From NCBI GenBank assembly GCA_902772915.1, contig CACYCE010000008.1, forward strand, positions 1 to 56,006: 56,006 nucleotides of DNA, read 5' to 3'. Below, in pieces: positions 50,941 through 54,692 of the stretch. The translations under genes and the position numbers were made by a program. This DNA comes from an uncultured Erysipelotrichaceae bacterium (lineage in GTDB: Bacteria; Bacillota_I; Bacilli_A; RFN20; CAG-288). Within the stretch, counting starts at the first letter, position 1; each line of letters starts with the position of its first letter. The notes under the pieces are model-generated. The model was not told where the DNA came from, did not search any database, and saw only the letters and a program-made list of their open reading frames with translations.

Positions 50941-50969
50941 TTGAAAAATAATTTTATTAAGTGTAATAT
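50941..50969 (+). promoter_or_regulatory. Promoter of the T-box valS transcript
   Basis: TTGAAA (50941-50946) and TAATAT (50964-50969) with 17-base spacing, directly after the pepC stop. Confidence 0.65.
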
Positions 50970-50975
50970 TTATGT

Positions 50976-51162
50976 ATCTTGAGGTGATTAATAGCCTTTT
51001 TTGATAGAGAGTTCCTTCCTAGCTGCAAGAGGAATAAAAAAGAATTGATCTGGTCGCAAGATGAAGTTATTAAACAAATTTATTAAGAGCATAGAGAAAG
51101 TCTATCTATGAAGCAAGGTGGTACCGCGTGGAAGCGTCCTTGTAAAGATAGGCTTTTTTATT
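50976..51162 (+). promoter_or_regulatory. T-box riboswitch (valine) upstream of valS
   Basis: The T-box core AAGGTGGTACCGCG is at about 51115-51129. GUC (Val) followed by G at 51053-51055 is the likely specifier codon. The terminator pairs AAAGTCTATCT (from about 51096) with AGATAGGCTTT (about 51146-51156) and a T-run. Confidence 0.92.
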
Positions 51163-51182: not shown

Positions 51183-53759
51183 ATGGAATTAAAGATGGAA
51201 AAAAACTACGATCACTTCAAAGTGGAAGAAGGCAAATTCGATTTTTGGAATGAGTCAGGCTATTTTAAAGCTAACCCTAGTTCTTCTAATAAAGGCTTTT
51301 CGATGATTATTCCTCCTCCTAACGTCACAGGTGTTTTACATATCGGTCACGCTTTAGATGCTACTTTACACGATATCATCGGACGTTATAAAAAATTATC
51401 TGGTTACGATGTTTGTTTTGTTCCTGGAACTGATCACGCCGGTATCGCAACTCAAGCTAGGGTGGAAAAGAATTTACGTGAAAAAGGTATCTCTCGTTAC
51501 GATTTAGGAAGAGAGAAGTTTTTAGAAGAAACTTATAAATGGACTTATCAATCTCAAAAGACTATTCACGAACAGTGGAAAGCTTTAGCCATAGGTATGG
51601 ACTATTCTCGCGAATTCTTCACGATGAATGAGCAAACTAACAAAGCTGTTTTGAAAGTGTTTAAACAACTTTATGATGAAGGTTTGATTTATAAAGGAAG
51701 AAGAATAATTAACTGGGATGTCACTTTACAAACTGCCTTATCTGATATTGAAGTTGAACATGAAGATATCCCTGGTATCTTTTATTATTTCAAATATAGA
51801 TTAGTTGATGATAAAGACAAATATTTTGTCGTTGCTACTACTAGACCTGAAACTATGTTTGGCGATGTCTGCCTAGTTTACAATCCTAAAGATGAAAGAT
51901 TCGCTTCTTTAGAGGGCAAGTACGCTATCAATCCTGCCAATGGAGAAAAGTTACCTTTTATCGCTGATTATTACGTCGATAAAGACTTTGGTACCGGCTT
52001 AATGAAATGTACTCCCGCTCACGATCCTAATGATTTCGCTATCGCTAAACGTCACAATTTAGAAATGCCTATTTGTATGAATTTAGATGGCACTATGAAT
52101 GAATTAGCAGGTGAGTACAAAGGTTTAGATAGATTTATCTGCCGTGATAAATTAGTTGAAAGAATTAAAGAAAACGGCGATTTAGTTAAAGAAGAGAAGA
52201 TTGTTCACTCTGTAGGTCACTCTTCTAGATCTCACACCATAGTAGAACCCACCTTATCTGATCAATGGTATGTAAAGATGGAACCTTTAGCTAAGAAGGT
52301 ACTCGAATTAGAAAAAGGTGAACAGAGAATTAAATATTTCCCTTCCAGATTCGAAAAAGTCTTTTTGAATTGGTTGAAAGACACTCAAGATTGGTGCATC
52401 TCTAGACAATTGTGGTGGGGTCATAGAATCCCTGTTTATACCAATAAGAAAACTGGAGAGGTGGTTTGTTCTATCGAGCAGCTTCCTGAAAGTGAATGGG
52501 AACAAGATAACGATGTCCTCGATACTTGGTTCTCTTCAGGTTTATCCCCTCTAGTTTTAACTAATTGGCCTAATCTCGAGGATCCCTACTTCAAGAAATA
52601 TTTCCCTCTAGATGTCATGATAACCGGTTACGACATCATCTTTTTCTGGGTGGCTAGAATGGCCTTTGATTCTGCGCATTTTACTGGCAAATTACCTTTT
52701 AAAAATGTCTTTATTCACGGTTTAGTTAGAGATGAATTAGGAAGGAAGATGTCTAAGTCTTTAGGTAATGGAGTCGATCCTTTGAAAGTTATTGACGAAT
52801 TTGGGGTAGATTCCTTGCGTTACGCTTTAGCTACTTCGACCACTCCGGGTTTAGATATGTCTTTTGGTACATCTAATATCAAAGAAGCTCACGTCTTTTT
52901 AAATAAGGTGTGGAACGCTTCTAGATTCGTCTTGATGTATTTCCCTGAAAATTACCAACCTAAGGATGTCTCTGAATTGAAGTTGTCTTTCATTGAGGAA
53001 TATCTCTATTCTCATTTAAATGAAACAATTAAAAATGTCACTAAGAATATGGAGAAATACGAAGTTGGACAAGCTGGTCAATATCTCTATTCTTTCATTT
53101 ATGACATTTACTGTTCTAATTACATCGAACAAGCCAAGATTGATTTAAATGGAAATGATGAAAATAGAAAAGAAGTTGTACTTTCAGTTTTGTATGACGT
53201 CTTAAAGAAAGTATTAATTATGCTTTTTCCTTTCTCTCCTTGTATCTCTGAAGAAATCTATTCTTTCTTACCTATGCATAAGAAATCTCTCTACGAAGAA
53301 TCTTATCCTTTACCTGTAAAGAAATCTTTAAAGAAATCTGAATTAGGAGAAGAATTAGTCAACATTGTTAAATACATCAGACAATTCAAAGCTGAAAATA
53401 AGATTAGTCCTTCTAGCAAAATCAACTTATTTGTCAAAGGGGAAGAGAAAGAAATAAATTTATTGAAACCTTATTTAATTAAATTAGGTAATATCGATAA
53501 ATTTAATATTACTTCTTCTGAGGATGAAAGCTTCAGATTCTTCTCTGAATTTGGCGTAAAGTGCGAAAAAGAAGAAGTGGCAGTTTCTCCGGAAGTTATC
53601 AAGAAGAGAATTGAAGAATTAGAAGGAGAATTAAATAGAAGTAAGAAGATGTTATCTAATCCTAACTTTTTAGCTAAAGCTCCTAAAGAGAAGATTGAAC
53701 AAGAAAAGCAAAAATTTGCTAAATATCAAGCTGAATACGATAAATACACTAAAAAATAG
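51183..53759 (+). CDS. valS: Valyl-tRNA synthetase
   Basis: An 858-residue class I synthetase. PPPNVTGVLHIGHALD (HIGH, about 50), the editing domain with VATTRPETMFGD, WCISRQLWWGHRIP, VLDTWFSSGLSP and GRKMSKSLGNGVDP (KMSKS, about 522-526). The C-terminus ends in the ValRS coiled coil (IKKRIEELEGELNRSKKML to the end). AAGGAGG site 6 bases upstream, behind the T-box terminator. The transcript ends at the hairpin 53776-53813. Confidence 0.98.
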   Translation: MELKMEKNYDHFKVEEGKFDFWNESGYFKANPSSSNKGFSMIIPPPNVTGVLHIGHALDATLHDIIGRYKKLSGYDVCFVPGTDHAGIATQARVEKNLREKGISRYDLGREKFLEETYKWTYQSQKTIHEQWKALAIGMDYSREFFTMNEQTNKAVLKVFKQLYDEGLIYKGRRIINWDVTLQTALSDIEVEHEDIPGIFYYFKYRLVDDKDKYFVVATTRPETMFGDVCLVYNPKDERFASLEGKYAINPANGEKLPFIADYYVDKDFGTGLMKCTPAHDPNDFAIAKRHNLEMPICMNLDGTMNELAGEYKGLDRFICRDKLVERIKENGDLVKEEKIVHSVGHSSRSHTIVEPTLSDQWYVKMEPLAKKVLELEKGEQRIKYFPSRFEKVFLNWLKDTQDWCISRQLWWGHRIPVYTNKKTGEVVCSIEQLPESEWEQDNDVLDTWFSSGLSPLVLTNWPNLEDPYFKKYFPLDVMITGYDIIFFWVARMAFDSAHFTGKLPFKNVFIHGLVRDELGRKMSKSLGNGVDPLKVIDEFGVDSLRYALATSTTPGLDMSFGTSNIKEAHVFLNKVWNASRFVLMYFPENYQPKDVSELKLSFIEEYLYSHLNETIKNVTKNMEKYEVGQAGQYLYSFIYDIYCSNYIEQAKIDLNGNDENRKEVVLSVLYDVLKKVLIMLFPFSPCISEEIYSFLPMHKKSLYEESYPLPVKKSLKKSELGEELVNIVKYIRQFKAENKISPSSKINLFVKGEEKEINLLKPYLIKLGNIDKFNITSSEDESFRFFSEFGVKCEKEEVAVSPEVIKKRIEELEGELNRSKKMLSNPNFLAKAPKEKIEQEKQKFAKYQAEYDKYTKK

Positions 53760-53775
53760 CAAACAATGCAAAAAT

Positions 53776-53813
53776 AAGCTCCTTAATCCTTTATGGATAT
53801 AAAGGAGCTTTTT
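53776..53813 (+). terminator. valS terminator overlapping the peptide gene's ribosome site
   Basis: AAGCTCCTT (53776-53784) pairs with AAGGAGCTT (53802-53810), with an inner ATCC/GGAT stem, followed by five T residues. The 3' arm contains AAAGGAG, the only Shine-Dalgarno site for the peptide gene that starts 9 bases later. Confidence 0.85.
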
Positions 53814-53816
53814 ATT

Positions 53817-54005
53817 ATGAATAATTTAAGAAAGTTATCTGATCGAGAAATGGAGAAAGTTATAGGAGGAGAAGCTATTACTCTAGCGGGAGTAATGGCG
53901 ATATTAGTAATATCAATTGTCGTAGTAATGTGCTACAGATTTTTTATCTCTCCTAAAGGCAAAGTTTCTCTACCAGGAGGGTTTGAATTCGAATGGAAAA
54001 ATTAA
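53817..54005 (+). CDS. 62-residue peptide with double-glycine leader-like N-terminus
   Basis: A small protein starting MNNLRKLSDREMEKVIGG. The segment LSDREMEKVIGG fits the double-glycine leader pattern of class II bacteriocins and related secreted peptides (LS..E(L/M)..(I/V).GG). Cleavage after GG would leave a 44-residue peptide with one strongly hydrophobic stretch (AGVMAILVISIVVVMCYRFF) and a polar tail. ATG 53817 is preferred over 53793 because AAAGGAG lies 9 bases before it. Its stop directly abuts the radC ATG. No peptidase-ABC transporter or immunity gene is visible. It could equally be a plain single-pass membrane protein. Confidence 0.62.
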   Translation: MNNLRKLSDREMEKVIGGEAITLAGVMAILVISIVVVMCYRFFISPKGKVSLPGGFEFEWKN

Positions 54006-54692
54006 ATGAATTTTAAAAGTTTACCTTTAGAATTCCGCCCTAGGGAAAAAGCTAAAAGAGAAGGTATTGAATCTTTATCAAACGTCGAACTGTTAGCTAT
54101 ACTTCTACAAACTGGTATTAAAGGTAAAGATGTCATAACTCTAGCTAGTGAAATTCTAGATTCGGAAGGAGGCTTATATAGTCTATCCAATTCTACATAT
54201 AAACAATTAGATTACAAAGGCCTAGGAGAAGTAAAAAAGCTTAAGCTTCTAGCTTGTTTTGAACTATCAAGACGCGCTAAAGAAGAAGGAATGTATTCTA
54301 TCAAAGTCGAATCTAGTAAAAAATGCGTCGATCTTTTTGGCAAAGATATTTCCTTTTTAAAAGAGGAGAGGTTGATAGCAGTCTATTTAGATGGGAATGA
54401 ACGTTTAATTAAAAAAGAAGTAATTAATTACGGAAACGCATACTCATGCAACATAGATTTTAAAAAGATTCTTCAAAAGTGTTTAGCCAATTCTTCTTAT
54501 TATCTTTATTTAATACATAACCATCCTTCCGGCAGTTCAATTCCTTCAAAGAAGGATGAAGATTTTACTAAAGCTCTAGCTTATTCGCTTAGTTCGATAG
54601 GTGTGATACTTTTAGATCATTTAATAGTCAGTGGAAATGAATATTCTTCCATAAGAAAATTTCTCGATAAAAGACAAAATAATAATAAATAG
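54006..54692 (+). CDS. radC: RadC/JAB-domain protein
   Basis: A 228-residue RadC-family protein. An N-terminal UPF0758 helix-hairpin-helix region (RPREKAKREGIESLSNVELLAILLQTG, about 11-37) precedes the MPN+/JAB domain with the metal motif HNHPSGSSIPSKKDEDFT (about 172-189). Despite the name it is not a proven repair protein; the JAB motif suggests a metal-dependent hydrolase. Its ATG immediately follows the stop of the 62-residue peptide gene, so translation is probably coupled. Confidence 0.95.
   Translation: MNFKSLPLEFRPREKAKREGIESLSNVELLAILLQTGIKGKDVITLASEILDSEGGLYSLSNSTYKQLDYKGLGEVKKLKLLACFELSRRAKEEGMYSIKVESSKKCVDLFGKDISFLKEERLIAVYLDGNERLIKKEVINYGNAYSCNIDFKKILQKCLANSSYYLYLIHNHPSGSSIPSKKDEDFTKALAYSLSSIGVILLDHLIVSGNEYSSIRKFLDKRQNNNK

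Follow-up and report, generated by a model that had tools for sequence, protein, structure and literature searches.

A short gene between valS and radC is a core gene of its bacterial order and probably encodes a resident membrane microprotein, whose double-glycine-type leader would be cut by a C39 protease encoded next to ybeY and whose translation would be held down by a hairpin that contains its Shine-Dalgarno (SD) site. The gene is located in a window, the whole 56,006-nucleotide stretch of DNA from an uncultured Erysipelotrichaceae bacterium that was analysed, and all features of the window described here are on the forward strand. Its open reading frame (ORF) of 62 residues starts with the ATG at 53817, ends with the TAA at 54003-54005, and has valS as its upstream neighbour (51183-53759 in the ORF list). 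The first 18 residues (53817-53870, MNNLRKLSDREMEKVIGG) form the leader, with conserved residues at L-12, E-8 and G-1. They are followed by the mature part of 44 residues beginning with EAITL (53871-54005 with the stop codon), which is predicted from hydropathy to contain one hydrophobic helix and carries a PGGFxFxW tail, and is conserved order-wide. The first base of radC (54006-54692; PF04002 and TIGR00608) abuts the stop codon. Downstream of valS, the arms AAGCTCCTT (53776-53784) and AAGGAGCTT (53802-53810) form a hairpin (53776-53810, fold z -2.4) that is followed by a T-rich stretch. The only SD site of the peptide gene, AAGGAG at 53802-53807, is wholly inside the 3' arm, with all its bases paired. 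These are the main structural claims of an earlier note on this DNA: a 62-residue frame with a double-glycine-type (GG) leader, a sole SD site hidden by the hairpin, and a flush join to radC. All of them are borne out by our analysis, and both the leader positions and the design of the hairpin recur across the order. In a pattern scan, the interval from valS to the peptide ORF had no promoter-like site, and nothing near the gene rose above chance. It is possible that the peptide is controlled through read-through from valS, and that translation of radC is coupled to it. Upstream of valS, positions 50963-51144 match a T-box leader (RF00230, 56 bits, E 8e-11, under the gathering score of 93).

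That the peptide is a core gene came from searches of related genomes. A homologue, mostly in a single copy per genome, was found in 56 of 59 relatives. These cover all 38 of the near-complete genomes and 28 of the 30 genera, and such conservation rules out a chance ORF. In a class-wide sample, all 56 genomes of the order have the peptide. Its neighbourhood is also retained. radC is directly downstream in 59 of 63 loci of the order, in 7 of 8 from family f20 and in 30 of 30 from family f25, where one small ORF sometimes intervenes in f20 and f25; the count for the order includes some genomes that were retrieved twice. In most of the order and f20 loci that were inspected, valS precedes the peptide. 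Another ORF, of about 130 residues, separates the peptide from radC in several loci of f20 and f25. At L116, L118, L119, L148 and L152 (f25 and f20), the two genes are separated by a small ORF for a membrane protein of about 120-137 residues that may be SPOR- or SpoIIB-like. No immunity-like gene adjoins the peptide in the loci inspected. In f20 and f25 the peptide is co-located with radC-mreC-mreD, which hints weakly at a role in envelope or division work. Tandem copies were also observed: two or three precede radC at L148 and L149 of f20 (genomes G294 and G193), and one genome of the order has two (G006:C79:3112-3455). Peptide matches in family f17 were set aside; they are weak and adjoin C39 transporters, but their mature part is of a different type (IDGxxRPLxC). 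At L141-L145 of this family, a full C39 transporter, an ORF of 118-158 residues and a GG peptide with an IDGxxRPLxC-like end are found near yqeY-, rpsU- or cdd-like ORFs.

Comparison of 52 distinct sequences from the order shows that the mature part is conserved better than the leader, with a mean column entropy of 1.26 bits against 2.14 bits. This is the opposite of the bacteriocin pattern and the reverse of the better-conserved leader for which the earlier note had proposed a search. Within the leader, three positions are nearly fixed, L-12 (44/52), E-8 (49/52) and G-1 (51/52). The residue before G-1 is glycine in 33 of the 52 sequences, and in most of the others it is V, S, P or A, so that homologues do keep the motif, but as VG, SG, PG or AG as well as GG, and a GG pair is not strict. 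Alignment and hydropathy suggest that the mature peptide is a single hydrophobic helix flanked by Glu on the N-terminal side and by Arg or Lys on the other, and its conserved C-terminal tail reads SxxGxxxxPGGFxFxW. No Pfam or NCBIfam model matches the window peptide above its cut-off; the closest case is TIGR01847 (bacteriocin_sig), which scores 14.0 against a cut-off of 15.7 and only with a longer frame, while the peptides of some relatives exceed this cut-off.

The only C39 peptidase match in the genome of the window, which is 93% complete, is P0002, a protein of 400 residues (G000:C20:56892-58094, minus strand) whose gene lies upstream of ybeY, cdd and era and is unlinked to the peptide gene. 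It matches Peptidase_C39 (PF03412) with 33.4 bits against a cut-off of 22, and no other Pfam domain was seen. Among 19 aligned members, P0002 and its counterparts in the order have the catalytic Gln, Cys and His in 19 of 19 each and Asp in 18 of 19. A sequence check found no Walker A motif in P0002 or the other aligned members, indicating that the ATPase is absent. Profile comparison with 28 C39 transporters gave a probability of 99.7% for a match that spans the C39 domain and the greater part of the membrane domain. Of the C39 peptidase-ABC transporter envisaged in the earlier note, the peptidase thus exists with an intact catalytic site, while the ATPase is missing in the sole C39 protein. 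C39 matches were seen in 37 of 38 near-complete relatives and, within the class sample, in 55 of the 56 genomes that belong to the order. Sequence conservation of P0002 is low, about 28-30% within the genus, and many homologues therefore escaped a search with one sequence. One genome, G360, has a peptide with GG and no C39 match, perhaps because of an assembly gap. The C39 ORFs of the order are mostly 380-450 residues long, and certain families show just a short C39 ORF. Where the downstream flank is readable, ybeY follows closely in about two-thirds of the order genomes and is absent there in about one-third. A handful of order genomes have an additional full C39 transporter. At L056, L059 and L060, it adjoins an ORF of about 130 residues and a possible radical-SAM-like ORF, and these loci are perhaps ordinary RiPP clusters.

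The position upstream of ybeY is occupied differently in other families. In f20, a full C39 transporter is immediately upstream of ybeY and the GG peptide is beside radC (L159, L160, L146-L149, L152). A full C39 transporter is likewise directly upstream of ybeY in mycoplasma-like genomes, in which TGA encodes Trp (L254-L257), and one of these transporters passes the cut-off of NF045998. In f25, the slot has a C39-only ORF of about 110-127 residues. The states seen at this slot are therefore a full transporter, an ATPase-less membrane protease, a bare protease, and nothing, and we infer that it changed by loss of domains rather than by gain.

Family f25 also contains peptides that have lost the leader. 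A C39 ORF precedes ybeY in 11 of the 12 leader-bearing genomes inspected. For one of the 12, G442, the leader is assumed from the length of the frame and from the genus rather than read from the peptide. The exception is G341, which keeps a leader with GR replacing GG and has no C39 seen before ybeY. None of the leaderless f25 genomes with a readable ybeY locus has C39 there; the neighbour, where seen, is phoH, phoU or fmt. Nevertheless, 19 leaderless genomes retain the mature peptide with radC downstream, and most of the leaderless peptides have positive charges on the C-terminal side only. The co-loss identifies the mature part as the unit that endures. It is not a strong independent correlation, because only about two changes are needed on the RadC+YbeY tree. 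Full C39 transporters are also present elsewhere in the genomes of G511 and G517.

How the leader and the C39 protein may work together is suggested by these sequence features. We argue that the gene product would be a single-helix membrane microprotein with a housekeeping role, and that its precursor carries a double-glycine leader, which the C39 cysteine protease of the ybeY locus, here P0002, would cut after residue 18. P0002 itself probably descends from a C39 ABC transporter whose ATP-hydrolysing half is gone. By the positive-inside rule, positive charges stay on the cytoplasmic side of a membrane helix. As Glu precedes the helix and Arg or Lys follows it, an N-out/C-in topology is expected, with the SxxGxxxxPGGFxFxW tail inside. 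With its charges, the leader would impede passage of the N-terminus, and its removal would let this short segment cross the membrane. It is conceivable that cleavage by the cytoplasmic C39 domain could permit insertion without an ATP-driven exporter. Counter to this explanation, a different ABC protein could provide the ATPase in trans. Also on this side are the lack of linkage between the two genes, the loose GG pair, genomes G341 and G360, the small number of changes behind the co-loss, and the order genomes in which ybeY does not closely follow the C39 gene. The hairpin downstream of valS, which holds the SD site, would repress translation of the peptide.

That the hairpin is more than a coincidence of this one locus is supported by folding 52 peptide genes of the order that have an SD site, together with 74 other genes of the order loci. 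Every base of the SD site is in a 3' arm in 32 of the 52 peptide genes and 10 of the 74 others (Fisher p = 3e-8, with no correction for kinship). The full pattern, in which a T-rich stretch also precedes the start codon, occurs in 21 of 52 and 3 of 74 (Fisher p = 3e-7, likewise with no correction for kinship). In the window, none of the 25 larger genes with an SD site shows the full pattern. Where the SD site varies (AGGAGG, AAGGAG, AGGGAG or AGGGGG), the 5' arm tends to match it, L007, L013 and L024 being among the cases; the arms were aligned poorly by MAFFT, so these compensations are descriptive and carry no covariation score. There is nevertheless a substantial chance, somewhat short of even, that the hairpin just serves as a compact terminator for valS, contains the SD site by accident and has no regulatory meaning. 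The genome is compact and AT-rich, and a sizeable minority of the order lacks the hairpin. Its absence from the list of terminators produced by the pattern scan of the window is counted on the same side. The excess of the full pattern in peptide genes over other genes, and the matching of 5' arms to variant SD sites, argue against such an accident.

Two further explanations of the peptide have to be weighed. It could be secreted as a class II bacteriocin or as a signalling peptide, in line with the earlier note, and C39 would then cleave and export it with an ATPase from another ABC protein. The leader is typical and matches bacteriocin models, and full C39 transporters are present at the same locus in f20 and in mycoplasmas. 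We consider this unlikely, since conservation is concentrated in the mature part, the peptide is found in essentially all genomes of the order and mostly as one copy, and no immunity-like gene adjoins it. The retained synteny, the persistence of leaderless forms and the lack of an ATPase in the order's C39 protein also speak against it. Alternatively, the frame could be a translated leader ORF that controls translation of radC by coupling, the peptide product being of little weight. The stop codon abutting radC in the window and the presence of radC directly downstream in nearly all loci would fit, but the strong amino-acid conservation of the peptide would not. As several f20 and f25 loci have the ORF of about 130 residues between the two genes, and probable mycoplasma relatives adjoin rplU or lspA instead, control of radC is a very improbable reason for the existence of the gene. 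We therefore prefer a resident microprotein matured by C39.

The proposed system resembles known GG leader/C39 ABC systems (class II bacteriocins, ComC-type pheromones and PCAT1) in the leader positions -12, -8 and -1, the intact C39 catalytic residues of P0002 and its homologous membrane domain. It differs in that the C39 protein of the order has no ATPase domain, the genes are unlinked, and the substrate is a core gene whose mature part is conserved above the leader and persists in leaderless versions. The best NCBIfam match of P0002 is to the Mbov_0121 family of transporters (NF045998, E 9e-9), which includes mycoplasma C39 transporters. The f20 transporter, which has the same position before ybeY, matches this family with 2e-67, whereas P0002, matched over residues 3-168, reaches only 34.1 bits where the cut-off is 500, and stops before the ATPase domain. 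The mycoplasma C39 transporter 0401 of syn3A can be likened to this family and may belong to NF045998. Like the stand-alone maturation proteases FapD and FilB (NF058616 and NF050078), P0002 is a C39 protein without its own ABC ATPase. Its matches to them are weak, it retains a membrane domain derived from a transporter, and its surroundings showed no amyloid or pilus genes.

More broadly, we tentatively suggest, at slightly less than even confidence, that in a large clade of Bacilli including the mycoplasmas, this branch of GG/C39 systems serves the core maturation of one resident membrane microprotein and not the secretion of weapons or signals. The ybeY-linked C39 protein could shed its ATPase, then its membrane domain, and then vanish along with the leader, leaving the mature microprotein in place. 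Orphan C39 transporters, syn3A 0401 among them, would have their missing substrates in the mycoplasma peptides. Such decay from a full exporter to a bare protease, with the substrate persisting, would undercut the labelling of each GG-leader peptide as a bacteriocin. Our results also add a radC-adjacent core gene and a recurrent hairpin that combines a terminator-like stem with a ribosome site.

The GG peptides of mycoplasmas are probably homologous to the radC-linked peptides, given profile E-values of 1e-5 to 3e-3 in an earlier search, the shared architecture and the shared ybeY transporter. With a profile including mycoplasma members, a GG peptide match was found in 120 of 124 genomes of family f22, and the best-matching peptides bear the motif SxxGE[IV]KxKDxSxKW. 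Family f11 gave weaker matches, several of which are GG-leader ORFs between rsmI and rplU. The mycoplasma peptides are offered as candidate substrates for C39 transporters reported without one, such as syn3A protein 0401, which Breuer et al. (PMC6609329) describe as a C39 transporter lacking a known double-glycine substrate. As rpmA is 0499 (PMC6609329), and the L27 protease and rsmI are 0500 and 0504 (PMC4993169) in the syn3A numbering, the candidate slot for the substrate in JCVI-syn3A would be, if one remains there, a gene between rplU and rsmI.
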